Positions 311 through 17,774 of a DNA stretch of 35,009 nt are shown one piece after another. Each line of letters starts with the position of its first letter. Position 1 is the stretch's first letter. The position numbers and the translations under genes are program-made. Source of the DNA: Propionibacteriaceae bacterium (GTDB taxonomy: Bacteria; Actinomycetota; Actinomycetes; Propionibacteriales; Propionibacteriaceae); assembly GCA_030532825.1 (NCBI GenBank), contig JAUNKK010000023.1, forward strand, positions 1 to 35,009, given 5' to 3'. The notes under the pieces were generated by a model. That model was not told the DNA's origin and made no database searches. It saw only the letters and a program-made list of their open reading frames with translations.

Positions 311-2110
311 TCACTTGAACCCTTCGGACTGCAATCTATAAAGGGATGCGTATCTCCCTCTTTGCTGCATCAGTTGCTCATGCGACCCGGACTCAATGAT
401 GGACCCGTTATCCATAACAACAATTTTATCAGCCATGCGAACTATTGAAAACCTATGGGTAATGATGACGGTCGCTGATCGGTGTGCGCGAGACCGTTCC
501 GCGGCGGCGCTATATCTGTAAAACAGGTCAGCCTCTGCACGAGCGTCCAGTGCGGCGCTCGGCTCGTCGAGAAGCGTGAAGCTCGGTTTCGGATGCAGCA
601 TACCTCTGGCTATGGCTATCCGCTGCCATTGTCCGCGCGAAAGATTCACGCCACCCTCCCATTGAGCGCCCAGCTGTTGGCTCTCACCGAACTTCAGTTG
701 TGGCAAGAAGTCGACGACGCCCGAATCGCTGATGGCTCGTGAGAAGTCAGCCTCCGAGGCGGACGGGTATCCCAGCCGCACCGCCGCCTTCAACGTGGAC
801 TCAAAATTGAAGAAGTCCTGAAAGGTCGCTGCCACACCGCTTCGCCACTCCGCCCAGTTCTCCTTGCGTAGCGGCAGGTTGCCGCGCCAGATGGTTCCAT
901 TGGTCGGCTCGTACATTCCGGTCATCAGTTTTGCAAGGGTGCTCTTTCCGGACCCGTTTTCGCCCACGACCGCCACAACCTCTCCCGGGGCCACCGAAAG
1001 CGTGACGTTTCTTAGGGCAAACTCGTGGCTTCCTGGGTAACGGAATGAAACGTCATGTAGCTGGAGTTCCGACGACGCTGATGTGATAACTGCCCCTTGG
1101 GTTGCGGTGCTCGCCGTTTCTCCATACTCCAGCAGCCACTCAAGACGTTGAGCGACGCTCACCCAATCGCCACGAAGAAAAGAGGCTTCCGTGACGAATT
1201 CACTCAGATAGGAAGAGACCCGGCTGCCCACGACGACGAAGACAACAACTTGACCACTACCGAGATGGCCGGACTTGAGGCCGAGTATGAGGAGCCCTCC
1301 GAAGGACGCGCCGAAGCCGAGCCACGCCAGCGTGACTGCAGCTGCTGCTTTGCCCCGTGCGCGGAACACATGGTAGTTGCGAGACTCTCTATGCTGGACG
1401 TAGCTTGCCATGAGGCGAGCGCCGGTCCCGGCCACGCGAACCTCCTTGGCCGGGCCCGGGTCGGTCATGAGCCTTAGGTACGAGCGAGCTAGCCGTTCAT
1501 GGAAGCTAGTCCGCTCCTGCTCGTCCCTGATCCTTGTGCCCGTTCGTGCAGCTACAAGCAAGGCAGGCACCGCCGCGGGCACCAAAAGCAGGAGGGGCGG
1601 CCAGACGGTGACTAGGAGGAGTGCAGCTAAGATGATCCTCAGGAGTGCGCTCGCAGTATTGAGGAGCGATGAGTACAGCATTCCCAGCGCAAAACTCTGA
1701 TAACGGAGGACCGCGAGCCGGTCAAGGATCGCCGGCCGCTCGCAATGCTCGATACCAGGCAAATGGGCCATCACCCCTGCCACCAAGGACTCAGCCCTCA
1801 CCGATAAGCGGATGTTGTACACCCGCTGCATCTTCTGAATGACCGTCCTCGAGACCCACTCGAGGCCTGCAAGCAGGCCCAGCGCCAGAACGACCCCGAC
1901 CGCCCTCGCCGTCGTCGTTGGGCCGCGGTTGAGCCAAGCCAGGCCAAGGACACTGAGGAACTCCATTGCCACCGCGGCGATAGCGCCTAGCAGAACAACG
2001 TAGAACTGGGAGCGGCCACTCGAGTAGGCGAATCGCAGCGAACTCCAGAGCGAACGCCTGATCCCGGGGAGCGGACCGAGACTGTCAACGACAGTGCTAT
2101 TCGCTGTCAT
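311..2110 (-). CDS. ABC exporter half-transporter (fused membrane and ATPase domains)
   Basis: The protein has 599 residues, the normal size for a type IV half-exporter. An N-terminal membrane domain (about residues 15-320, five or six hydrophobic segments) precedes a nucleotide-binding domain. Visible motifs are Walker A GENGSGKST, Q-loop TFQDFF, signature LSRGQWQRIAIARG (Arg in place of the usual second Gly), Walker B FTLLDEPSAALD with the catalytic Glu, and an H-loop in IITHRFS. The ATG overlaps the end of the upstream ABC gene by 14 bases, so the two are translated together and probably form a heterodimer. The substrate is unknown; peptide, drug or lipid-linked sugar are all possible. The neighbouring dehydratase remnant makes a glycan link conceivable. 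No bacteriocin precursor or modification gene is present. Confidence 0.9.
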   Translation of the reverse strand: MTANSTVVDSLGPLPGIRRSLWSSLRFAYSSGRSQFYVVLLGAIAAVAMEFLSVLGLAWLNRGPTTTARAVGVVLALGLLAGLEWVSRTVIQKMQRVYNIRLSVRAESLVAGVMAHLPGIEHCERPAILDRLAVLRYQSFALGMLYSSLLNTASALLRIILAALLLVTVWPPLLLLVPAAVPALLVAARTGTRIRDEQERTSFHERLARSYLRLMTDPGPAKEVRVAGTGARLMASYVQHRESRNYHVFRARGKAAAAVTLAWLGFGASFGGLLILGLKSGHLGSGQVVVFVVVGSRVSSYLSEFVTEASFLRGDWVSVAQRLEWLLEYGETASTATQGAVITSASSELQLHDVSFRYPGSHEFALRNVTLSVAPGEVVAVVGENGSGKSTLAKLMTGMYEPTNGTIWRGNLPLRKENWAEWRSGVAATFQDFFNFESTLKAAVRLGYPSASEADFSRAISDSGVVDFLPQLKFGESQQLGAQWEGGVNLSRGQWQRIAIARGMLHPKPSFTLLDEPSAALDARAEADLFYRYSAAAERSRAHRSATVIITHRFSIVRMADKIVVMDNGSIIESGSHEQLMQQRGRYASLYRLQSEGFK

Positions 2111-3933
2111 CGCGAAACCCTGACGCCTGAAGATCGAACATTTCCCTATAGATTCCGTTCCTCTTCATCAAATCATCGTGGCTACCTGTCTCAGCAATCT
2201 CTCCATTCGCCAAAACATAGATTCTCGCGGCTTGTCGGACAGTTGGGAATCGGTGGGAGATCAAGATCGTGGCACACTCCTTCGTTGCATCTGTGATGTT
2301 CTGAAATACCTCCACTTCACCTTCAATATCCATCTGAGCAGTCGGCTCATCAAGCATCACGAGCCACACGCCTTCATGTACTTTCTGCAACGTTCGCGCG
2401 ACCGCGACACGCTGCCACTGTCCGCCCGAAAGGTCGCGCGCTCCTGGATACCCACTGCCCAAGGGGGTGTCTACGGCAACGCTGTCTGGGAATCCTGTTT
2501 GACTTAGGGACACCCGTACTGATTGCTCATCCGCAGCTCCTAGCGGCGCTACGTTCTCCGCAAGCGTCCAGTCGTACTTCGCGAAGTCTTGGAAGACCAC
2601 CGTTTGCATACTTCTATGCCCGGATGCCTCCACGTGTGTAACAGGCAGGCCATCGACTATGACTTCGCCCCCTGTGGGCGACAAAAGACCGCACAATAGT
2701 TTAGCAAGTGTCGTCTTTCCGGAGCCGTTGGCGCCAACGATGGCTATCGTTTCGCCTTGCTCTACTCGCAACGAAACTCCACTCAAGACCTGGCGATCAG
2801 ATCCGGGGTAACTGTACGTTACGCTTAAGACCTCGAGAAAGTGGGGGCCGGTGGCCCTGATGTTGTCGTTGAGCTTGGCGCCTGAAGGTCCGGACACCGT
2901 CTCGCCAAGTCCCTGTGCATCCCCGGGATCCGCTCGGCACTCGCGCTCCACCCTTTCCAACGCCGCAGTCACGCCGGAACACTGGTCATAGACCCAGTCC
3001 GCGCCGCCAAACCCAAGACCCGCGACGGCAAGAGATGCTAGTGCCGCAACAGTCAATTCAGACGCGCTCATCGAACCTGCGGAGACCCTCTGCGCAAAGG
3101 ACGCAAACACAGCCATGTACGTCACCACAAGAACAATCAGGCTCAGAGCGATACGCCCACCACCCAAGCTCGCTTGTGAAATCCGCTCGTCGGCCAGCAG
3201 TGTACGATGCCGAGTGAATTTTGAGCTTGCCCAACTAGCCAGATCAAAGACTCTGACTTCTTTCGCTGCGGGGGCGTCCACGCAAATTTCGTAGTAGTAG
3301 TTGGCCCGCCTCTGCGCCTGCCCCGTGGATGCGGTGTCGGGGCCCTTCCGTGAGTGATTGATGAGTCTAGTGACGAGCCACGCTGTCACAAGCACGGGTC
3401 CAGCCCACCAAAGGTAGAGCGAGGCGACTGCCGCCATCCCGAGACTAGTAATACGCCCCGCATTCCCCAAGGCGATTAGATTCATCGCCACACTCAAAGG
3501 GGGGGCCATCCAAAGCGAGGTCGAAATCTCTCGCTAAAGCAACATCCCCCATCACCTCTGCATCCTCCAATACGGACACAGAAGGCGCGTCCTCAAGCGA
3601 CGTCATAAGGCGGGAGTCATAAGACTTGACCATCTCATCACCCAAACACTCGCTAACACTTGAAAGAAGGCCCGGCAGGAAGTTCATCACGGCAAAGATG
3701 ATAGAAGTTGCGGCCACTAACGTGCCTGTGCGTAAATCTCCTGCCAGGAGTGCCCCTAATGTCCACACGAAGACTGCTGGGAGCAAGCCTGCGGCTACCG
3801 TAAGTGCGAACCACGATGCAGCGAGTCCCGGGGAGGCGACATAGGCGCTTCGGTGGAACCGAGCGCGATCGCGAAACCCCCTTGCAAGCAAGGTCAACGA
3901 CGGCCGCGGAAATGTCTTAGCTTGCTTTCGCAA
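2097..3933 (-). pseudogene. ABC exporter half-transporter, split by a homopolymer frameshift
   Basis: Two overlapping frames together encode one exporter of about 611 residues. The first (3933 to 3445) holds the start and first membrane helices. The second (open from 3509 to 2097) holds the remaining membrane part and the ATPase domain: Walker A GANGSGKTT, Q-loop VFQDFA, canonical signature LSGGQWQRVAVAR, Walker B VMLDEPTAQMD and H-loop ISHRF. They meet at a run of seven G (plus strand 3499-3505). With six, the frame reads through as DGPPLSVAMNL. The gene could be inactive, be a sequencing error, vary in phase, or be rescued by slippage on the C-run. Its ATG overlaps the end of the upstream dehydratase fragment by 17 bases, and its own end overlaps the partner exporter. 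Confidence 0.85.
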
Positions 3934-4380
3934 GGCGCCTAAACTCTCTCTTGATATCCACTGGAGCCCGCGATTTAGTCAATCCGTGCACTGCGTTTGG
4001 ATCGATTGCGGGAACGTTGAAGCAGTGTACTCTCACGCCACTGTACAATACCTCTTCCACGCTGCCCTCTGGATGCGTCCACGACCCATGTAGCTTCTCG
4101 CCGCCCGTCAAGCCAGTAAAACGAATCACGCCCACCTGCGGCGCCTTCCTCGTGAGTACAGCCGTGATCCCCAAGATGCTGTACGCCTGCCCAAGCGCTG
4201 GCTCCACCGTCGTACCTGGTTGCGCGGCCTCACAAGCACCCACCAAGAGGTCCACCGCTTGTTGCTCTGTCATGAAGTAGCACGTGGCTCTCGGATCGGT
4301 CACCGTGAGCGGAACACCGTTGCGCACCTGACGATCGAGTTTGCAGCACAGACCCCCGGCTTCCCAACCCGCTGGCCGGA
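3917..4380 (-). pseudogene. C-terminal remnant of a CapD/FlaA1/PglF-type nucleotide-sugar dehydratase
   Basis: The readable part runs from a GTG at 4327 or an ATG at 4273 to the stop at 3917. It matches the C-terminal end of UDP-GlcNAc 4,6-dehydratases/epimerases. LTVTDPRATCYFMTEQQAV corresponds to the family's 'P-TVTHPE-TRYFMTI-EAV', and FTGLTGGEKLH to 'FTGLRPGEKLHE'. Just upstream, in another frame, 4366-4340 encodes GLGSRGSVLQ, matching the family's 'NVLGSRGSV' block. The gene therefore has an indel near 4345 as well as a missing front. The Rossmann NAD-binding domain and catalytic centre are gone, cut off close to the IS end at 4404-4420. It is probably non-functional, although the remaining frame could still be translated. 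Its end overlaps the first ABC gene. Confidence 0.7.
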
Positions 4381-5113: not shown

Positions 5114-7069
5114 CTACTGGTCCAGCGTGTACAGCCAGGCCAGCAGCAGCGATCGAGCGAACCCGTCGTCGATGGGGACCTGATCCGCCAATTCGACGGC
5201 TTCGTTCCGGGCGTCCGGTCCCGACAGCGCCCAGTAGGCCAGCAGCACGTCCCCGTAGGTGCGGGCGAAAGTATCAGCCGTCAGGCCATTGTCGATGTTG
5301 ACGGCAACCCGTCCGGGATCCGCCCCCAGGTACGTCGACGCCGGGGTCACCGGCAGAACCTGGATGGCCAGGCCCGCCTCCGGGTCGGGGGAGAACCACG
5401 TAGCGAAGTCCCGCTTGCCGCCGAAGTTGAGGGGCAGGAAGCTGTGCTCCAAGGGCGCATACAGCGGATCACTCGTGTTGAAGTTCAGCCAATACGCCAA
5501 GGCAGCGCTGGCCTCGTTGGACTGCAGCCAAGCGGCCTGATCCGCCAGCGCCTCGTCGCCGCTGACCTCCGCCCACAGCCGCAGCCCAACCCAGGCGGCC
5601 ACGGCCTCGCTCGTCGATTCCTGGTTGTTGGCATCCGCGAACGGGGCCGTCCCCGAAGCCCACGAATGAGATGCGTAGGCGTCGTAGACGCGCAGCGCCG
5701 GGAAATTTTCGGACGGGGTGGGGCGCGCGATGTCGGCGGTGATCAGGGTCATGATGGGCGCCAGCTCCGGGACCAGGCTGGGATCGTCCTGGCCGACCAG
5801 CGCGGCCGCATAGAGGAAATAGCCGTAGTGGAAATGGTGGTCGTTGAACTCATCGCTGCCGAACGTGGCCACCAGCCCGACCAGGCCGTGGTTCTGCTCG
5901 TCGTAGAAGAAGCAGCGCGCCGCCTCCGCCGAGCACCCGGCTGGATTCGTCCACGCCCTGAGCTCCGGCACCAGGCGCTCGCGAATCACGGCAGCTAAAT
6001 CGTCGCGACCCAGCGATTTCGCCAGGTGCAGCAGCTGGGCGTCCCGTGCCAGGGCCTTCCCCGCGAAATACGTGTCCGCCGGATACTCCGGCAACCCCCG
6101 GACATCGACCTCCAGATGTGCGGCGAGGTTCGCGCGCGCCGCCTCGTCCAGGCCGCTCAGGTCATAGGTCGCGGGTGCGGCCAGCTTCGGCGCGCCCCAC
6201 GTCACCGACGACTGCCGACACAGCTGCAACTCCCCATAGACACTGTCAAAGGTGCCCAGCTGGCAGTCCGTCGCATCCCCGGAGACCCGCTGATGCGGCA
6301 TGGTGGCCACCAGCGGCGGCCCACCGTCCGCCGTCTCCCAGGTGATGGTGGTGAACACCTGCTGCTCATCGGCTCGCCACGCCAACGACGACCCCACCAC
6401 GGGGCTGACCTGATCCAGCACCTCGGCTTTCGCCGCCCCCTCGGGGACCGCCACCCATGTCGCCGTCTCGCCTGCTGCGAGCGGGAGCTGGGGTCCCTCG
6501 GCCCCAGAATCAGCGACCAGCCCAAAGCGTTCCGGCAGCGGCGAACCCTCCAGCGTCACGGGCCGGGACGCCGTGAACGTCACCTGCGGCGACCCCTGAG
6601 CCAGGGTGACGCGCCCGACGGGACCAGCCGCGTCGCGTCCCTCCACGACGACGGTGGCGGTGTCGTAGGCCACCACCTGCCAGTCCGTGACCCCCGGCAC
6701 GACCACCGTCACGTCCGGCCGATGCCCACCGAACAGCGTCTTCTCTGTGGACTCCACCACCGGCAGCCCGAAGGTGAACCCATCGGCGGTGAGCTGAAAG
6801 CTCAACGGTAGGGGATACACGGGCAACGGCTCAGGGCCGAAGACCAGCCCGGAGAACCAACGGTTGGTGGGCGGGACGAGACCCTCGGCCAGCCGCGTGG
6901 CCTGCAGATCCCGACCCGCGCGATGGGCCACTGCCGCTAAGGCCGCGTCCTCGCCGGGCAGGGGGCTGGGCGGCGACGGTAGCTCGGGCTGTTGCCGGGT
7001 GCTGCCCGGCAACAGCAGGACCGCCACCAGGCAGACAAACCCCAGCAGAAGGGTGCAGAATCGCCTCAA
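5114..7069 (-). CDS. GH81 endo-beta-1,3-glucanase, secreted or membrane-anchored
   Basis: The protein has 651 residues. An N-terminal hydrophobic segment (FCTLLLGFVCLVAVLLLPG) without a lipobox suggests a signal peptide or anchor. The GH81 hallmarks are visible: PTNRWFSGL near residue 65, NDHHFHYGYFLYAAA near 406 carrying the conserved Asp, and ASHSWASGTAPFADANNQES running into TSEA near 480, which holds the two Glu spaced four apart (NQESTSE) that form the catalytic pair in this family. GH81 enzymes cut internal beta-1,3-glucosidic bonds. The start codon is TTG, overlapping the stop of the fusion-protein gene as TTGA, so the two are translationally coupled. It is the third gene of the synthase operon. 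Its likely job is to trim or release the glucan made by the first gene, although scavenging of fungal glucan is possible. Confidence 0.88.
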   Translation of the reverse strand: MRRFCTLLLGFVCLVAVLLLPGSTRQQPELPSPPSPLPGEDAALAAVAHRAGRDLQATRLAEGLVPPTNRWFSGLVFGPEPLPVYPLPLSFQLTADGFTFGLPVVESTEKTLFGGHRPDVTVVVPGVTDWQVVAYDTATVVVEGRDAAGPVGRVTLAQGSPQVTFTASRPVTLEGSPLPERFGLVADSGAEGPQLPLAAGETATWVAVPEGAAKAEVLDQVSPVVGSSLAWRADEQQVFTTITWETADGGPPLVATMPHQRVSGDATDCQLGTFDSVYGELQLCRQSSVTWGAPKLAAPATYDLSGLDEAARANLAAHLEVDVRGLPEYPADTYFAGKALARDAQLLHLAKSLGRDDLAAVIRERLVPELRAWTNPAGCSAEAARCFFYDEQNHGLVGLVATFGSDEFNDHHFHYGYFLYAAALVGQDDPSLVPELAPIMTLITADIARPTPSENFPALRVYDAYASHSWASGTAPFADANNQESTSEAVAAWVGLRLWAEVSGDEALADQAAWLQSNEASAALAYWLNFNTSDPLYAPLEHSFLPLNFGGKRDFATWFSPDPEAGLAIQVLPVTPASTYLGADPGRVAVNIDNGLTADTFARTYGDVLLAYWALSGPDARNEAVELADQVPIDDGFARSLLLAWLYTLDQ

Positions 7070-7809
7070 CGCAGCCCGATCTTCACCAGAAACTCCGTGA
7101 CAGCTTGCGTGGGTCCGGCTAACGGCCCGTCATCTCGCAACGACATCACGGCGGTGACCGGCGTACCTCGTCGGGTGAGGAGCATCAGATCCTGAGCCTG
7201 AAGCTGCTCGCTGGACGCCGTCACCTCCGTGACGGTGTTATTCGTGGCCGGATCAGTGACGATGTTGACGCTCATGACCTGTCCTTCCACCAGCTTTCCG
7301 TTGGGTAGGTGGATGGTTACTTTCCCATCCGGCTCGATCCTGCCATAGTCCGAGGGGTTGAGCTGGTATCGCGCCACCACGGTCTTGTTTGAGCTGGCGA
7401 CGATCTCGGCCAGCGATTCAGCGCCGTTGACATAGCTGCCCTGGAAGGCCGTGTAGCTGTCGAGGTAGCCGTCGATGGTGGCGAAGAACGTAATGGCACC
7501 AGCCTCTAAATCTATGGTGTAGCCATCGGTGCTATTCGGTTCGACCCCCAGCGCGGCCATATCCTTCAGGCTCGCGCTGGTGATGGTAAAGAGCTCGTCC
7601 CCAGCCGAAACATATTCCCCGGGATTCCGGTTCTGTTTCGAAACCAGGCCTCCATACGGGGACGCTATAACCGTGCGAGGTGCCTCGACGTGGGCCGATA
7701 TGCTGGACACCTGGTTTTGTCGTTGGTTAAACAACAGTGTCAGTAACCCAAGAACGATGACGACGATGATGATGCCTGTGAGGAGCTTCAGGCGATTCAG
7801 CCAGGACAC
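7066..7809 (-). CDS. HlyD/BgsB-like membrane-fusion protein of a polysaccharide export system
   Basis: The protein has 247 residues. One N-terminal membrane helix (LLTGIIIVVIVLGLLTLLF) precedes an extracytoplasmic part built like a membrane-fusion protein. A barrel/lipoyl-like segment, VIASPYGGLVSKQNRNPGEY, lies near residue 50. A second, ATIDGYLDSYTAFQGSYVNG, lies near 112, and a beta-rich C-terminal part follows. It is shorter than tripartite-pump HlyD proteins and lacks a long coiled coil, resembling the accessory proteins next to GT2 synthases (Alg44 C-domain, BgsB). The GTG start lies two bases after the synthase stop with AAAGGG upstream, and the end overlaps the glucanase gene. It probably forms a path for the nascent chain across the thick wall. 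The function is inferred from context. Confidence 0.75.
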   Translation of the reverse strand: MSWLNRLKLLTGIIIVVIVLGLLTLLFNQRQNQVSSISAHVEAPRTVIASPYGGLVSKQNRNPGEYVSAGDELFTITSASLKDMAALGVEPNSTDGYTIDLEAGAITFFATIDGYLDSYTAFQGSYVNGAESLAEIVASSNKTVVARYQLNPSDYGRIEPDGKVTIHLPNGKLVEGQVMSVNIVTDPATNNTVTEVTASSEQLQAQDLMLLTRRGTPVTAVMSLRDDGPLAGPTQAVTEFLVKIGLR

Positions 7810-7811
7810 GG

Positions 7812-9665
7812 TTAACCCTTTCGGTGATGACTGGTGGGATGTTCGGCAAGGGAGTCCTTGGCGGCCTGGGCCCCCAGGATGGCCTCGGCATTCAGGGGCT
7901 CGGGCTGGTTGCCAACCGGCACGAGCGCAGGATCTTCCTGGTCGGCGGCAGCTATCGGGTCCATCCCGTGCCGCGGCTGGCGCAGCTGCGGCCCAAGCTT
8001 GGCCTGCCGCTTCTTGTCCCGGTCCTCAAGGAAGGCGGCGACAACGAAAGCCCCCAGGAAGATGGAGTTCAGCACGCACCAGAACGTCGCCACGTTCAGA
8101 TGCCCCATCGAGATGTCGCGATACACGGACACGATGGAGGTGCCCACCATGAGTACAAACGCCCACACCTGCACCATGATGAAGTTGAACGCCGACACCC
8201 CACCGCGGGTGGCACCCGTCGCCGCCCACTTCGTGTCCACCTTCAACAGGGCGTTGAAGAAGGCCTTGATGTAGATGGGGAAGGAATTGGCGGCCAGCAG
8301 CAGCACCTCCCAGCGGAAGGTGCCCGCGATCACCGCCGCAAGCACGATCTGCATCACGTAAAAGCCGGGGTAGAACAGGGCCCATTCGTACCATTTGACG
8401 GCCAGCGTCACGGGCCGAAGGTCAAAGAACACCTCCATGACAGGCACCAGCATGAGCAGGCCGGGCGCGATCCCCGTGAAATAGAACGTGCAGGTGACGA
8501 AGTACATGAGCCGCTGGTCCATGTGGAGGCGACGGCGCGGGCTCAGCGGATTGTGCGTGAACAGGATCTCGAAGCCCCCGGTCGCCCAGCGCAGTTGCTG
8601 CTTGCTGTAGGCCTCGATGGTGTCGGGGGTCTCGCCGATGGCCAGCTCTTTCGGCTGGAAGATGGAACGCCAACCCCGCTCGTGCAGCAGGATTGAGGTC
8701 CAGATGTCCTCCGACTTGGACTGCGTATAGATGCCGCCGATGTCCTTGACCGCGGCCCGCCGGAACACCACGTTGGTGCCGACGCAGAAGGCTGCGTTGA
8801 ACTCGTTGCGCCCCGGCTGGATGAACCGGTAGAAGACCATCTGGATGAACCCGGCGCCGCGGGAGACGATGTTGTTGAGGTTCCCATACACCTGGGGGGC
8901 CTGCACGAAAGCGACGTTCGGGTCCTCCATGAACGGGATCGTCTCCACCAGGAATTCGGGTTTGGCCACGAAGTCTGCGTCGAAGATGACGAAGAACTCG
9001 GCCTTAGCCAGGGACAGCGCGTTGTTGACGTTGCCCGCCTTGGCCCCCGAGCTGCCGAGTCGTCGCACATAGTGGCAGCCGAGTTGCTTGGCGAGGTTCC
9101 GTACGTCGTCTGAGTCGCCGTCGTCCAGGATCCAGGTGGTGTGGCGGCCGCGCATCGCCATGGCCGCGGTGACGGTGTGACGGATGATGTCCAGTGACTC
9201 GCCGTAGACGGTGACCAGCACGTCCACATCGATCTCGCGGCCATCCAGATGCATGGGCCAGCGTGTCGGGTCGTCACTGACCCCCACCCGGGCGTTGACC
9301 TCCGGGTCGAACAGCCGAGCCTGGGCGGTCTGGAACCGATAGTTTGGCTGGCGTCCGTAGCCGGAGAGCATCGTCCACAAGGCCATCGAGGCCTGGAAGA
9401 TGAGGATCATCTCACACGAGATGACGATGAGCCACGGGATGAGATCGCCTCGGAAGTTCGGGTTGAGTAGGAAGCCGGCGTACGCGAGGACGCCGATGGA
9501 GGCGAAGACGGCCACCAGTAACAACGTGGGCGAATAACGACCTGAGATCGAGGCTCGACGTTCCTCGGGGGCAAGGTCGTCAACGCGCGCAAGCTCGGTA
9601 TTCGCGTTGACGGCCGACAGGTCTGCCCGTCGGCGGTGTCGCCGGGTTCGGCGTGACGATGACAC
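7812..9665 (-). CDS. Processive GT2 beta-glucan synthase (cellulose/curdlan synthase-like)
   Basis: The protein has 617 residues. Two N-terminal membrane helices (about 48-100) are followed by a cytosolic GT-A domain and then four or five C-terminal helices (about 375-560). The processive-synthase motifs are in order: DDGDSDD near 179, DADF near 227, SED near 316 (catalytic base position) and QQLRW near 355 (the Q-x-x-R-W chain-binding motif). It would polymerise UDP-glucose, or another UDP-sugar, and push the chain out through its own channel. The C-terminus is a polar tail of about 70 residues with no PilZ RxxxR motif, so c-di-GMP control through PilZ is unlikely. The start is GTG with AGGAGA about six bases upstream. 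The GH81 partner argues for beta-1,3 or mixed 1,3/1,4 linkages. A hyaluronan- or PNAG-like product is less likely given that partner. Confidence 0.88.
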   Translation of the reverse strand: MSSSRRTRRHRRRADLSAVNANTELARVDDLAPEERRASISGRYSPTLLLVAVFASIGVLAYAGFLLNPNFRGDLIPWLIVISCEMILIFQASMALWTMLSGYGRQPNYRFQTAQARLFDPEVNARVGVSDDPTRWPMHLDGREIDVDVLVTVYGESLDIIRHTVTAAMAMRGRHTTWILDDGDSDDVRNLAKQLGCHYVRRLGSSGAKAGNVNNALSLAKAEFFVIFDADFVAKPEFLVETIPFMEDPNVAFVQAPQVYGNLNNIVSRGAGFIQMVFYRFIQPGRNEFNAAFCVGTNVVFRRAAVKDIGGIYTQSKSEDIWTSILLHERGWRSIFQPKELAIGETPDTIEAYSKQQLRWATGGFEILFTHNPLSPRRRLHMDQRLMYFVTCTFYFTGIAPGLLMLVPVMEVFFDLRPVTLAVKWYEWALFYPGFYVMQIVLAAVIAGTFRWEVLLLAANSFPIYIKAFFNALLKVDTKWAATGATRGGVSAFNFIMVQVWAFVLMVGTSIVSVYRDISMGHLNVATFWCVLNSIFLGAFVVAAFLEDRDKKRQAKLGPQLRQPRHGMDPIAAADQEDPALVPVGNQPEPLNAEAILGAQAAKDSLAEHPTSHHRKG

Positions 9666-10271
9666 CGGATCTCCTATCGGGTTATGTGGGGATGCTACGT
9701 CCGACTGACGCTAGCTACTTCAACGGAAAGATTAACTTGAATCAACGGAACTTTTGGGAGCAACAAGGATGTTGCGAGCCGTGACATGAATGCGTCGCGA
9801 TGGTTAGGGGTGGGTTTCCGAATGGCGTGCGCATGCTCCCGAACGAAGCGTGCTGGTTGGCTAGGAGGACAGCGTGTCCCAGAGCGTTGTGTAGCGGGCC
9901 TGAATCACGAATCGCTCCACATCGGCCATGGGCCTCGGGGTCTTCGTGGGGTCCTTCTGCGGGGGAGCCGCCCGGCTGTCGGCTTTTTGGCTGTTGGGAG
10001 AATGGCGAACGGTTGGTGCACGCCCTGGTGGGTACGGGGGGTGCTTACTGCTTTCGCGACGGTGGAGCGGCGATCGTTGCCTTACTCCGGCCATGAACGA
10101 GGTTGGTTGTAAATGAAGAATACGATTTCTTGTGCGTATCTCTTAGGTTTCGAGTAGATCCAAGCGTCGATCGTTGCAGAATGTGTGTCGTAACCCGCGC
10201 CTTGAATCCCGATGACAAGGGGTTTCGCCTTCGTCGCCTGGGCAGATTAGTTCCCTGAGGAAAATTAGAGG

Positions 10272-10283
10272 AATCTTAAGATT
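10272..10283. promoter_or_regulatory. 12-bp perfect palindrome
   Basis: AATCTTAAGATT reads the same on both strands and lies in an AT-rich patch of a GC-rich genome. It could be a dimeric regulator's operator. There is no further support. Confidence 0.25.
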
Positions 10284-10395
10284 GCTCTTGCAAATTTCAG
10301 CGGCGTGAAGTAGCGTCGGTCTTGCTCGTAAAGACCCCATTCCCGCCGGCGACTAGGCGAGTTCTGCCGGTAGAAGAAGAAAGGAGAACGCGACC

Positions 10396-10434
10396 ATGGA
10401 GCGGTCGCCAGGCGACAGCCAGGACCACTACTAG
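10396..10434 (+). CDS. 12-codon mini-ORF with a strong ribosome binding site
   Basis: ATG at 10396 follows AAAGGAGA with spacing of about seven to nine bases and encodes MERSPGDSQDHY before a TAG. The ribosome site is better than most in the window. The reading frame itself contains an inverted repeat (GTCGCC A GGCGAC, 10403-10415). It could be a leader peptide or simply a chance match; it lies more than 500 bases ahead of the next gene. Confidence 0.2.
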   Translation: MERSPGDSQDHY

Positions 10435-10680
10435 CTCAACTGAGCGAGCCGTGGGGTGACTGGCACCCACGTCGAACAGGAGTGCTGTGCCAAGAAGACT
10501 CCTATGGTCGCGAATCGCCATCGCAGCTTGAGGTGACGTGGGTTTTATATGGATGACGTTCGATGCTTCCAGGATGCCCGGCTGAGGCTGTCTCAATAGC
10601 TCGGTAGAATGGTTTGCATCAAACGCAGCAATAACCGTGTTCCTTGACGCTGGTTAGTGTTAGCGGTTCATCAGCATAAT

Positions 10681-10701
10681 GGCCAAATCTAAGATTTGAC
10701 C
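10681..10701. promoter_or_regulatory. Inverted repeat, possible operator
   Basis: CAAATCT-A-AGATTTG (10684-10698) is a perfect 7-bp inverted repeat with a one-base centre. It is extended by GG/CC on the outside with one mismatched pair. It lies about 280 bases upstream of the NlpC/P60 start. An operator for a dimeric regulator is the simplest reading, but no regulator gene is nearby. Confidence 0.3.
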
Positions 10702-10978
10702 TGTCTTGAAGTGCCACCATCGCTAATTGCGTTACAAGGCTGCCCTCTGGGGCGACAATGTGCTCTTTTGCCCTTGTCGTGGCTGGATCCTTGATGTTCA
10801 AGGTGACGGCGAAGCGCCTGTCTTCTCGTCAGATAATGAGGCAATGCCCAGGCTAGCAGCAAGGACAGCACATTCCAACTGAAGAACCGCCGGTGCCGCG
10901 CCGCGACGCCGGAGGGAAGGCCGCATTTTAGAAGCGGTCTCCCAGGACCGCATTGAAAGGAAAGAAGGGAACTAATCA

Positions 10979-13328: not shown

Positions 13329-16300
13329 TTGTATAAACCGAGGACCTGGGGCCTGCGTGGCCTAGTTTTATTGGGAGTCGCTTCGTTGCTAGGCAGCATG
13401 GTTTCAACTCCGGCTCATGCCGCGCCTCAGCTTGCGTTGCTGGTCAGAATCTCCTCCGATGGAACGGAGGCCTGGGATCACGACGACACGGCCGGTAACG
13501 ACTCCGGACCGAACAACGGCATCGTCCGGGTGAACGACACGGTGAACTACCGGATCCAGTACAATGTCAATGACTCGGATGGGGCTGCATATACGGGTCA
13601 GAACACCACGGTCAAGCTCAAGTTGCCCAAGGGCCTTTACGTCGACTCCCTGCCAGGCGTCTGCCGACAGCCGGGCTCGGCCCTGACCCCCGAATCCCTC
13701 CCAGAACCATCGCTGCCGCTGGCGGCCAACGCACTCGACGAACTGCCCGAGCAGGAACTGACGTGCAACCTCGGGGACAAGACCAACGCCTCCGAGTCCT
13801 TCTATCTGACGGTGAAGGTCAGCAACCTGGTGGGCAACGGCGCCCAGCTGCCCATCCTGGAGGGGTCGATCAGCACCGACGATGCGCCGGCGGTGGCTGC
13901 GGCGTCGCTGCCCACCGTGACCGCGTCGTCGCGCCTGAAGTGGGACATCTCCAAGAACAGCGTTGCCCTGGAAGAAAACCGGGGTTATGTGTACGGGCCC
14001 ACTAACTCCGAGTGCCCGTGGGACAAGAACAAGGTCTGTAAGCTCACCGCCTACACCGCGCAGCTCTCCGCTCCCGCTGCTGGCAAAGGGGCCATGCCAG
14101 CCATCGGCGACATCACCTTCACCGACGACCTGAGCCCAGCCGCCATGTACCCCGGCCTGGGCAGCGACCAGATCGCTGCCATTGAGGCGGACCTCGACAA
14201 ATACGGCAACCGGGTTTATCCGTACGATTACTTCTACATGGCCGCGGCCCCCAAGATCGGCTTCCGAGACGCCACGGCCGTCAACGCGGTGCGTGACTCC
14301 GGGCAGGTCACCATCGAGCAGGCTGGGCCCGGCAAGCCCGCCGTGTTCACGGTGAAAAACGCCGACACCACCTTGAAGACCTACCCGACTCAAGTGCTCC
14401 TGCCCTCGGGCAATGCGATCCCATCGGATGCCGCGTACGCCGTGACGACGTCCTTCGTCGTCTACACCCCCGTCGATGTGATCAAGGACTTCGGAACCTA
14501 CCGGGGGAACACCTGGACGCTCGCCACCCACAATGCGTTCACCGACCTTCAGGTGCACGGTCTCACGGCAGCTGACGTCCAAAACAGTGCGCAGCAACCC
14601 GTGTGGAACGACTACCGGGACACCACGCCTGAGGTGAGCATCGGGGTCGGCTTCTCGAAGTACTTCGCTGGCGTACCGGGGAGCGCGGGCAACATGCCCC
14701 CCGCCCAGTTCAGCCCCAACGACTTGTCCTACGGGGAGGGTCCGCCCGGCGGCGCCACCTTCCACTCCGGCGGCATCACCGTCGCGCCGACCCAGGACGT
14801 CCAGACGCAGTTGCTGCTCGTCGGCACCAATCCCGGCCTGCCCGGCAAGGTCAGCGCCGTCATGTGCGACGCCTGGGACAACTCGCGGTTGCATCTTGAA
14901 GCGCGTGACGTACCTGGCTCCACCGACTCCGAGGCGAACCTGCAGCGGATCGGCAGCGGCGGCGCCCCGGTGTGGGTGGCTGGCTACAACAACGTGCTCA
15001 TCAACGGTCAAGCGGCGTGGGCAACCCAGGCCGATCAGGTGCCAGCCATCAAGGTGCAGTATTCGGCGACCCCCGGCGGAGCCGGTGCGGCCTCGGAATG
15101 CGGCGACGACCAGGGGCCGTGGTACGACTCGCCCGCTGATGTTCCGGGCAACGACGCTACCCTGGCGGCTCGCGGTGTGTATTCGGCAGTGTCCCGGGTG
15201 CGGGTACACACCGTCCTGCCCGAACCCGTGGCAAACAACCCGGTGGTGGGCGTCGGTGTCCGTATGGTCGTCGCCATCTCGCATGAGGTTGTCGAATCGG
15301 GTAATCCGGCTGGGGACATCATCCCGAACTGGTCCGGCATCAAGCGGGTGAACCTGCAAGAGTTGTCCCAGGAGGAGGTGCTGGCCTATAACACCACGTG
15401 GGGGCGCAGCGACTACGGCCCGAGCGACCACACCGGCCAGTACGGCGATCGCCTGATCCTGTCCTTGGCGCAGGTCCGGGTGAACAAGCAGATCCGCGCC
15501 GGCACATCCGGGGAGTTCAGCTCCACCCCGCCGCGCGTGACCGGCGGCGATGTAGTGCAGTTCCAGCTGTCGCCGTCGCTGACCTCCGGTGCGTTGGTAC
15601 CGGGAATTCTCAAGGACGTCTGGATGGAGGACTGCCTACCCGATGCGCTGACCTATGCCGATGCGTCGGTGGCTCCGGACGTGGTGTCGGTGGGATCGAC
15701 GCCCAGCGACGCGAAACGTGCCGCCTGTGCGGCGGGCGAGACCTACCTTCGGTGGGTTTTCCCAAGCCACGAGGTGAATCAGGCCATCGAACCCATCATC
15801 CTGACTACCGAGGTTTCGCCCGCGGTGAAGGATGGCGTCTACACCAACACTGTCGTCGTATGGGCCCAGGACGACGCCTCGACGCTGGCGCAGCGCAGCT
15901 CCCAGGCCTCGGTGCAGGTGTCCAACGTCGCCGGCATCAAGCTGGAAAAGGTGGCCCTGACGCCCGTCGTTCAGGCCAACCGCGAGGGCCAGGCCGCCAA
16001 CGAACTGAACAAGTGGCGGATCCGCCTGACGAACACCCTGCCGAATCCCGACGCGCAGGCGATTAGCGACCCGGACGTGATCGACGTGCTGCCTCGCAAC
16101 GGTCTCAACGACACGGCGTTCAACGGCACGTTCACGCTAGATGCGGTCACCATCACGCACGGCGGCGGCACCGCCCGGATCCTGTACACCGCGGCGAGCG
16201 AGGTGAACCAGGACCCCGCCCACGCCTCCAACGCCAGCGACGGCGCCACCGTGTGGTGTGATGCCTCGGCGGGTGGCAACGTGGTGTCGGGGAATGGCGT

Positions 16301-17774
16301 CTGCCCCGCGTCGGCCGCCGAGGTGACGGCGCTGCGAATCCAGCAGCCCGGTAGCTTCGGTTCTGGCGAATATATTGAGGCCGAGTTGGCCATGGTCGGC
16401 GTCGGTAATCTCGACGGCGACGTCTACTCGAACGTGGTGTTTGCCCGCGCCACCGGGCTGGACCTGCCGGTGGGGCCGATCAGGCGCGTGGAGCGTGTTA
16501 TCGCGGGCGAGATCGGCGACTACGCCTGGGTGGATGTCAACCGAAACGGCATCCAGGACAAGGTCGACGGAAGCGATGAACCACCCGCGGCGGGCGTCGA
16601 GGTCACCTTGACGGGCACCGACGACCTGGGCAACCCGGTCAACGTCGCCACCACGACGGACGACTCCGGCAAGTACCTGTTCCGTGGGCTGCGGGCCTCC
16701 GACGCGGCGGGCTACACCGTCACGTTCGGGTCCTTTGCTGAAGGGTTCACTGTCCAGACGGCGGGCGACGACACCGCGCTCGACTCCAACGCCGACCCCG
16801 CCACCGGCGCGTCTGCGCCCGTGGTATTGGAGCGCGGCGGCAAGGACCTGACGATCGACGCCGGCTACGTCGCCGAGGGCAGCCTAGTCATCACGAAGGT
16901 GCTCGCCGGTGAAGGCGCCACCTTCGCGGCCGGAAAGAGCTTCACGTTCTCGGTCGCCTGCATGCTCTACGAACAGCAGGACGTCTTCGTCAAGCCGGAT
17001 GTCACCATCACCGTCCCTGCGGGCGCCACCAGCGCCGACAGCGCGACCGTGACCGGTATCCCCGTGGGAAGCCAATGCTTGATAACCGAGACTGACGTCG
17101 ACGTCGAACCGACGGGGCGGCCGGGAGCCACGATCCGCGTCCTCTGGGATGCGGATGCGAGGGCTGGCGAGACCGAGAGGGTGTCGCTCACCAACCCCTA
17201 CACGGCGGGCATCGTGCAGGTCACCAAGACCCTCGAAGGCGATGCGGAAGCCGTGGTAGCCGCCGCCCAGACCGAATTCACGGTCAATGTGACCTGTCAG
17301 CTTCCTGATGCCAATGGGGAGGCGGGGGCCACCGTCTTCAGCGGCGACGTGAAGCTGAAGGGCGGCGAAACCGTCACCGTGAAGGACACCCAAGGTGTGG
17401 ACGTCCGGTTGCCGCAGGGGGCGCGGTGCTTCGGCCAGGAGACCGATGCGGGAGGCGCCGCCAGCCACACCGTCACCCCCAGCACGTGGGCTGATGCCGT
17501 AGCAGTGACCGGCGACGACCCTGCCACCTTGCAGGAGTTGCACATCGCGGTTGTCAACACCTTCAACACCCCGCCCTCTCCGGAGCCGAGTCCGTCGCCG
17601 TCGCCTTCCCCGGAGCCGAGTCCGTCGCCGTTGCCCTCTCCGGAGCCGAGCCCGACGCCCAGTCCCTCGCCGTCGGCGCCCCCGACGTCCGCGGATCCAA
17701 CGGTGACGCCCACGCCATCGCGACCGAGCCCCGTGCCCATCAGGCCCGGTCTGCCTGAGACTGGTAGGGCATAG
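13329..17774 (+). CDS. Large secreted surface protein with SdrD-B and DUF5979 domains and a tail-less LPETG motif
   Basis: The protein has 1481 residues and starts at TTG behind AGGGGGAGGG. A signal peptide ends near THPAHAAP-type residues at about 32 (STPAHAAP). A long region without recognised domains (about 33-1050) resembles the repetitive isopeptide or DUF11-like beta domains of actinobacterial adhesins. An SdrD-B domain follows (GDYAWVDVNRNGIQD, about 1060-1180), then two DUF5979-type beta domains (SLVITKVLAGEGATF and IVQVTKTLEGDAEAV). A Pro/Ser/Thr spacer ends in GLPETGRA and a stop. The LPETG sortase motif is present, but the hydrophobic helix and basic tail that should follow are absent in all three frames. 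Sortase retention would fail by the usual mechanism, so the protein is either released or truncated. It has its own terminator and looks monocistronic. Confidence 0.85.
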   Translation: MYKPRTWGLRGLVLLGVASLLGSMVSTPAHAAPQLALLVRISSDGTEAWDHDDTAGNDSGPNNGIVRVNDTVNYRIQYNVNDSDGAAYTGQNTTVKLKLPKGLYVDSLPGVCRQPGSALTPESLPEPSLPLAANALDELPEQELTCNLGDKTNASESFYLTVKVSNLVGNGAQLPILEGSISTDDAPAVAAASLPTVTASSRLKWDISKNSVALEENRGYVYGPTNSECPWDKNKVCKLTAYTAQLSAPAAGKGAMPAIGDITFTDDLSPAAMYPGLGSDQIAAIEADLDKYGNRVYPYDYFYMAAAPKIGFRDATAVNAVRDSGQVTIEQAGPGKPAVFTVKNADTTLKTYPTQVLLPSGNAIPSDAAYAVTTSFVVYTPVDVIKDFGTYRGNTWTLATHNAFTDLQVHGLTAADVQNSAQQPVWNDYRDTTPEVSIGVGFSKYFAGVPGSAGNMPPAQFSPNDLSYGEGPPGGATFHSGGITVAPTQDVQTQLLLVGTNPGLPGKVSAVMCDAWDNSRLHLEARDVPGSTDSEANLQRIGSGGAPVWVAGYNNVLINGQAAWATQADQVPAIKVQYSATPGGAGAASECGDDQGPWYDSPADVPGNDATLAARGVYSAVSRVRVHTVLPEPVANNPVVGVGVRMVVAISHEVVESGNPAGDIIPNWSGIKRVNLQELSQEEVLAYNTTWGRSDYGPSDHTGQYGDRLILSLAQVRVNKQIRAGTSGEFSSTPPRVTGGDVVQFQLSPSLTSGALVPGILKDVWMEDCLPDALTYADASVAPDVVSVGSTPSDAKRAACAAGETYLRWVFPSHEVNQAIEPIILTTEVSPAVKDGVYTNTVVVWAQDDASTLAQRSSQASVQVSNVAGIKLEKVALTPVVQANREGQAANELNKWRIRLTNTLPNPDAQAISDPDVIDVLPRNGLNDTAFNGTFTLDAVTITHGGGTARILYTAASEVNQDPAHASNASDGATVWCDASAGGNVVSGNGVCPASAAEVTALRIQQPGSFGSGEYIEAELAMVGVGNLDGDVYSNVVFARATGLDLPVGPIRRVERVIAGEIGDYAWVDVNRNGIQDKVDGSDEPPAAGVEVTLTGTDDLGNPVNVATTTDDSGKYLFRGLRASDAAGYTVTFGSFAEGFTVQTAGDDTALDSNADPATGASAPVVLERGGKDLTIDAGYVAEGSLVITKVLAGEGATFAAGKSFTFSVACMLYEQQDVFVKPDVTITVPAGATSADSATVTGIPVGSQCLITETDVDVEPTGRPGATIRVLWDADARAGETERVSLTNPYTAGIVQVTKTLEGDAEAVVAAAQTEFTVNVTCQLPDANGEAGATVFSGDVKLKGGETVTVKDTQGVDVRLPQGARCFGQETDAGGAASHTVTPSTWADAVAVTGDDPATLQELHIAVVNTFNTPPSPEPSPSPSPSPEPSPSPLPSPEPSPTPSPSPSAPPTSADPTVTPTPSRPSPVPIRPGLPETGRA
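17581..17670 (+). repeat. Three 30-bp tandem repeats encoding a Pro/Ser spacer
   Basis: The word CGGAGCCGAG recurs at 17581, 17611 and 17641, exactly 30 bases apart, each followed by Pro/Ser codons. The first two copies are nearly identical and the third diverges. Being ten codons long, a change in copy number would lengthen or shorten the wall-spanning spacer without shifting frame. Confidence 0.85.

Follow-up and report, generated by a model that had tools for sequence, protein, structure and literature searches.

Which polymer would be assembled, exported and cut by a β-glucan synthase whose gene is coupled to those of an adaptor protein and a β-1,3-glucanase-like enzyme in a bacterium without an outer membrane? 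This question is raised by an operon of a Propionibacteriaceae bacterium (GCA_030532825.1). The window analyzed here is the entire 35,009-base contig JAUNKK010000023.1 of a 3.33-Mb draft genome with a completeness of 97.5%. Three genes on its reverse strand encode, from first to third, a processive glycosyltransferase family 2 (GT2) β-glucan synthase of 617 residues (7812..9665, GTG start), a short HlyD-type membrane-fusion/adaptor protein of 247 residues (7066..7809, GTG start) and a glycoside hydrolase family 81 (GH81) endo-β-1,3-glucanase-like enzyme of 651 residues (5114..7069, TTG start). The first two genes are separated by a 2-base gap (7810-7811) and the last two overlap by 4 bases (7066-7069), confirming the coupled operon described in an earlier note made from the letters of this DNA. 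We favor, with moderate confidence, the interpretation that the three proteins constitute an envelope machine of monoderm actinobacteria, which would make, export and trim a linear, mainly β-1,3-linked, curdlan-like glucan.

The synthase has six hydrophobic segments, a GT domain at residues ~145-365, a DD/DxD/SED/QQLRW signature and a short C-terminal tail. In a Pfam search of the window proteins (E values up to 0.1), it matched GT2 models with up to 83 bits and Cellulose_synt with 52 bits, and BcsA chains were its best matches among solved structures (7.5e-43). The D, DxD, ED, QxxRW and QxPH/Q signature of processive GT2 β-glucan synthases is invariant in 53 of 53 aligned rows of the operon family. 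The structure matches, together with a score of 217 bits against the CelA/BcsA model TIGR03030, could indicate that the enzyme is a cellulose (β-1,4) synthase and that the GH81 protein is an unrelated passenger attacking foreign β-1,3-glucan. BcsA is also about as near to the family profile as the curdlan synthase CrdS, and a cyanobacterial operon for a synthase, an HlyD-like protein and an endoglucanase has been assigned to cellulose (PMC12430437). We nevertheless consider this explanation highly improbable, because the TIGR03030 cut-off is 699 bits, a passenger would hardly co-occur with the synthase in 15 of 15 and 50 of 51 genomes (described below), and three residues of the channel entrance are not BcsA-like. 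Channel-entrance positions differ between curdlan and cellulose synthases (PMC6821405). Position 258 is Gln in all 53 rows, as is CrdS Q237 (H276 in BcsA); position 275 is likewise Gln in 53/53, corresponding to CrdS Q259 (BcsA N298); and position 286 is always Arg, where CrdS has K270 and BcsA L309. This combination is CrdS/BgsA-like, with BgsA itself carrying Gln, Gln and Arg. The CrdS reference, from an Agrobacterium plasmid, has W344, Q237, Q259, K270, H374, W422, E439 and H442 exactly at the positions given in PMC6821405, and its upstream neighbor spans 1,455 bases, compared with 1,458 for crdA in PMC10819609.

The earlier note had proposed placing the synthase phylogenetically against curdlan, BgsA, cellulose and hyaluronan synthases. 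We used a tree of 69 rows, comprising 36 operon synthases chosen from ~100, 26 distant relatives and seven references; it was built without hyaluronan synthases, RiGT2 and Xcs, and several reference rows sit on long branches. The operon synthases form one clade (100/99), and CrdS, BgsA and BcsA form a separate clade with a Bradyrhizobium relative (99/91), the backbone between the two being unresolved. The window synthase lies inside neither the curdlan nor the BgsA clade. It also does not group with the poly-N-acetylglucosamine synthase PgaC or the Nod synthase NodC, which fall far outside the operon clade on very long branches. Against the family profile, PgaC scored 71.7 bits and NodC 35.0 bits, compared with 194-215 bits for the glucan synthases (BgsA 214.9, E. 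coli-type BcsA 201.2, a further BcsA 194.3 and CrdS 196.5). These values bear on the idea that the operon makes another polymer altogether, of the poly-N-acetylglucosamine or hyaluronan type. The broad GT2 fold would be the same and distant matches to PgaC and NodC exist, but the scores and the tree speak against it, as does the lack of a widely recurring fourth gene: when neighboring proteins (at least 110 residues, within 5 kb) were clustered, 13 of 85 loci was the widest spread of any cluster, and a large share of the clusters listed look like wrong-frame readings. Such a product is scarcely credible. A second cellulose-synthase-like family is present in the same genus and order (L036-L040), with frames of up to ~1,200 residues and a clade of its own; a profile search of these loci found no operon-type HlyD or GH81 beside it.

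The synthase has no PilZ match, and neither PilZ nor GGDEF was found in the window's own genome, which bears out the earlier note on the absence of a PilZ domain. The C-terminal tail is 24-70 residues long in the first 10 rows of the alignment, and the long tail with which BgsA binds cyclic di-GMP (c-di-GMP) was not seen there. Because of the missing PilZ match, the short tail and the lack of GGDEF and PilZ in the genome, a BcsA- or BgsA-type c-di-GMP switch seems unlikely. The same features enter into the possibility that the product is a mixed β-1,3;1,4-glucan, as made by BgsA and RiGT2, or some other substituted β-1,3-glucan whose β-1,3 runs are edited by the GH81 enzyme. A Gram-positive precedent for mixed linkage is known (PMC10374906), BgsA shares all three entrance residues, and BgsA outscores CrdS both against the window synthase (162 versus 147 bits) and against the family profile (214.9 versus 196.5 bits). 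However, neither the PilZ domain of RiGT2 nor the 139-residue c-di-GMP-binding tail of BgsA was seen in the module. Moreover, mixed-linkage glucans with single β-1,3 bonds would be poor GH81 substrates, and we regard a mixed-linkage or substituted product as unlikely.

The third gene bears most directly on the linkage. Its product matched Glyco_hydro81C with 169 bits (cut-off 25.6) and the solved structure 6fop (3.3e-58); two sequences among the solved GH81 relatives are named endo-β-1,3-glucanase. The motifs NDHHFHYG and NNQES..E provide D410, E484 and E488, which we take to be the catalytic residues; they are invariant in 14 of 14 sequences and identical in the four structure alignments listed. 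The N-terminal β-sandwich PF03639 gave no Pfam match, and residues 58-177 align to residues 28-151 of 6fop (7.7e-08). Characterized GH81 members are known as endo-β-1,3-glucanases and require contiguous β-1,3 bonds. The earlier note took the glucanase as a direct clue to the bond that is made: the enzyme is indeed of the GH81 family, and a β-1,3 linkage is probable as judged from this partner. In a comparison with seven other GH81s, 22 from the operon were joined on a branch of their own (100/100), which suggests an enzyme reserved for the module. A lipobox-like motif is present in 81 of 100 operon GH81 rows under a loose pattern, and the window protein, which has no such match, carries one N-terminal hydrophobic segment as a probable anchor. 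Given these motifs and the hydrophobic segment, the operon GH81s are probably anchored on the outer side of the membrane.

The adaptor matched HlyD_3 with 59.2 bits (cut-off 22.2) and has a single N-terminal hydrophobic segment; its matches to solved structures were weak (best E 0.077). Members of its family are 241-253 residues long (47 aligned), and reading by eye places the two lipoyl-like halves ~25 residues apart, compared with ~190 residues in the 412-residue BgsB. The long α-hairpin of Gram-negative adaptors is probably missing here, which would be expected because the host cell has no outer membrane. The description of this protein as BgsB/HlyD-like in the earlier note fits when it is taken broadly as HlyD-like, as indicated by HlyD_3; a profile comparison with S. 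meliloti BgsB gave a weak match (probability 42%) restricted to the C-terminal part. CrdA (484 residues) was rejected as an ortholog of the 247-residue adaptor after no profile match was detected. In Acidipropionibacterium jensenii, synthase and HlyD are read as one 866-residue frame. We rejected a true fusion and set this frame aside; a frame break is likelier because the linker looks out-of-frame and a separate ribosome-binding site precedes the start of HlyD.

Does the trio recur as a unit? Of 60 related genomes (counting that of the window), 15 have a full-length synthase together with a full-length operon-type GH81, and the other 45 lack both. Apart from the window's own, the 14 synthases are 51-83% identical to that of the window, and gene order is identical in 15/15 close loci (again including the window's). 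Two extra, distant GH81s were seen among the 60 genomes, one as a second copy in G003 and one in G057. We also scanned a collection with one genome per species, which yielded 259 relatives; the best 80, which are the nearest ones, were retained. All three genes are in order in 78 of these 80 titled loci, and the other two (L106 and L119) reach a contig edge. About 23 named actinobacterial genera are represented in this set of 80, and the NCBI labels of the tree members are Propionibacteriaceae, Nocardioidaceae, Microbacteriaceae, Cellulomonadaceae, Promicromonosporaceae, Demequinaceae and Sanguibacteraceae, with one metagenome-assembled genome labeled Acidobacteria. At the junctions, synthase and HlyD lie within -20 to 60 bases in 99 of 101 rows and HlyD and GH81 within -60 to 150 bases in 95 of 100, though the 101 rows are not all independent, as no fewer than 8 of the 80 titled loci come from genomes that also supplied the relatives' loci. 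Genes in pieces were counted as present, namely the synthase of G114 and the GH81s of G066, L061, L065, L070 and L096, and so was the GH81 of L063, which is truncated at a contig edge. In Naasia aerilata (L096), L061, L065 and L070, the GH81 match extends over several frames, from either a broken gene or a sequencing error, and the synthase and HlyD frames are open. Demequina iriomotensis has two synthase-HlyD pairs in tandem (L093, 7827-16320), the second without GH81 in the stretch seen.

The genus Cellulomonas gives the same picture in 81 genomes. The synthase occurs at full strength in 51 and the operon-type GH81 in 50, all of them within those 51, so that the glucanase accompanies 50 of 51 synthases and none of the 30 genomes without one; Fisher tests on these counts ignore phylogeny. 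In the one exception, G099, the contig that holds the synthase is only 4.7 kb long. Together with the 15/15 and 78/80 loci and the 15-to-45 split of the related genomes, these data uphold the earlier view of a dedicated hydrolase, here a GH81 that co-occurs with the synthase. In several Cellulomonas, a second, larger GH81 lies directly downstream of the operon (e.g. G090:C2:996687-998006 and G079:C1:2112658-2113977).

The GH81 enzyme could chiefly serve re-utilization and take no part in synthesis, releasing sugar from a reserve or capsule polymer during starvation, a role compatible with a β-1,3 product. In this regard, a further GH81 is found in 45 of 51 synthase-bearing Cellulomonas and in 4 of 30 without the synthase (all four being distant GH81s), and how Cellulomonas flavigena re-uses its curdlan has been called unclear (PMC3544764). 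On the other hand, the operon GH81 has a clade of its own, its gene is closely coupled to the others and the protein is probably held at the membrane; the second, larger GH81 could already do the scavenging, and the window genome holds a single GH81. We view a chiefly re-utilizing enzyme as possible but rather doubtful.

Published work on curdlan in Cellulomonas bears on the operon. C. flavigena, a soil bacterium, is a Gram-positive curdlan producer (PMC3035266, PMC3544764) that makes the polymer abundantly, and small amounts come from C. fimi and other species (PMC3544764). C. gelida is reported to be curdlan-negative (PMC3035266). PMC3544764 had pointed to Cellulomonas GT2s with 35-39% identity to CrdS and named Cfla_3154, Cfla_2615, Celf_3456 and Celgi_1506 among them. 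C. flavigena, C. fimi and C. gilvus very probably all carry the operon. In the first of these, the operon synthase shares 38% identity with CrdS over 281 residues, inside the published range, and by estimate the numbering of Cfla_3154, Celf_3456 and Celgi_1506 fits the map positions of the operon. In the portions of PMC3544764 available, the GT2s and GH81 are mentioned separately, with no operon, adaptor or connection between them.

Several observations weigh against the interpretation that the module is a curdlan-like system. The gating motif FxVTxK is said to be fully conserved in BcsA, CrdS and BgsA (PMC6821405), but it is absent from the operon synthases, which have WxVTG in the 53 rows. 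The window loop reads W-A-A-T-G; W, T and G of the family form are invariant in 53/53, and the Lys position holds A, S, T, R and others. CrdS H374 is not kept, being replaced by V390 in the window and by V, A or I in the family, and H442 is probably not kept either (L, M, T or V at position 456, where the alignment is uncertain). Position 279 is Tyr, as is BcsA Y302. In the tree, the synthase falls outside the branch that holds CrdS, and the profile scores put the family at roughly the same distance from BgsA, BcsA and CrdS. In Cellulomonas, the operon also occurs in C. fimi and C. gilvus, yet C. fimi and other species are reported to make little curdlan, so presence of the operon does not predict yield; furthermore, a second CrdS-like GT2 was named per genome in PMC3544764 and provides a rival curdlan locus. 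Finally, in a phylum-wide draw of 396 genomes, the full-strength synthase was found only in the window's own, and the module is therefore a scattered minority trait in the phylum. Another 17 genomes of this draw hold synthase relatives of 31-44% identity. Operon-type HlyD and GH81 were not found around 27 distant relatives at E 1e-10, some of these stretches ending at contig edges.

With these points taken into account, we still favor synthesis, export and trimming of a β-1,3-glucan, and the following model would account for the three genes. The synthase would polymerize glucose from UDP-glucose, the presumed donor, while passing the growing chain across the membrane by a channel of its own, and the product would most likely be a linear, mainly β-1,3-linked, curdlan-like glucan. 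The adaptor, held by one N-terminal helix, may form an exit collar or scaffold at the outer face; apparently lacking the long α-hairpin, it would have no outer membrane to span to. The GH81 enzyme, probably tethered to the membrane, may trim, release or later re-mobilize the chain. We tentatively extend this model to a monoderm-specific class in which synthase, hairpin-less HlyD collar and tethered GH81 would act in one complex, with GH81 setting chain length or release and the WxVTG loop working without c-di-GMP. This class would include the Cellulomonas curdlan locus and its three genes would have been passed on together among Propionibacteriales and Micrococcales, a proposal that is less probable than the simpler model.

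The earlier note stated that such glucan systems are best known in Gram-negative bacteria, which is fair, but Gram-positive producers have been published, namely C. flavigena for curdlan and Romboutsia ilealis for mixed-linkage glucan (PMC10374906). Among known systems, the nearest architecture that we found is Xcs and the nearest chemistry is crdASC. The Xcs or type IV cellulose operon of cyanobacteria likewise encodes a synthase (XcsA), an HlyD-like protein (XcsB) and an endoglucanase (XcsC) in one conserved operon (PMC12430437). As compared by description, XcsA has a PilZ domain and is assigned to cellulose, and the system is modeled to reach an outer-membrane TolC-like channel, whereas the module here has no PilZ, a β-1,3-type hydrolase and no outer membrane to cross. 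The Agrobacterium crdASC system resembles it in placing a processive GT2 without PilZ match beside an HlyD-type partner and one further protein, and in sharing Q237 and Q259. It differs in that CrdS belongs to the other clade and has FxVTxK, crdA comes first, and CrdA is about twice as long as the adaptor. The third protein there is CrdC, listed as being of unknown function (PMC10819609), where the module has GH81; CrdC has no Pfam match over cut-off, and we rejected it as a GH81 relative because no profile similarity was detectable. The Agrobacterium CrdC gene is located at L172 6908-8188. S. meliloti BgsBA also pairs a GT2 synthase with an HlyD-like partner and lacks PilZ, but it is described as a two-gene operon without glucanase, BgsB has 412 residues, and BgsA, in the other clade, carries the 139-residue c-di-GMP-binding tail (PMC5567048). 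RiGT2 of R. ilealis, again compared by description, is a Gram-positive GT2 β-glucan synthase that is clostridial and has a PilZ domain; HlyD and GH81 partners are not mentioned in the available part of its description (PMC10374906). We recognized no account of a synthase-HlyD-GH81 module in listings and abstract beginnings of the open-access literature. The module is real and recurrent, and represents an apparently undescribed variant of synthase-dependent β-glucan secretion.

Upstream of the operon, positions 9666..10978 (no strand assigned) separate it from a divergent NlpC/P60 gene and form the presumed promoter site; a promoter scan of this stretch gave no sigma-70-like site. On the other side, a short adjoining open reading frame (3917-4327, reverse strand) matches Polysacc_synt_2 (CapD-like) only C-terminally, at model positions 187-279 of 293, and is probably a truncated remnant. 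Two overlapping ABC exporter genes (311-3509, reverse strand) matched many exporter models, including MsbA and CydC/CydD, all below cut-off. A surface-type protein of 1,481 residues with SdrD_B and DUF5979 domains is encoded at 13329-17774 on the forward strand.

Curdlan from the Gram-positive C. flavigena has long been published, with only candidate GT2 genes named in the available text of PMC3544764. The module described here would offer one compact locus for both synthesis and turnover of such a polymer. Its synthases add a further GT2 clade whose gating loop is built differently and which, in the window genome at least, shows no sign of c-di-GMP control, providing a comparison for how the choice between 1,3 and 1,4 bonds is made. 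β-1,3-glucan on host-associated actinobacteria, among which we presume Arachnia to be, would bear on innate immune recognition.

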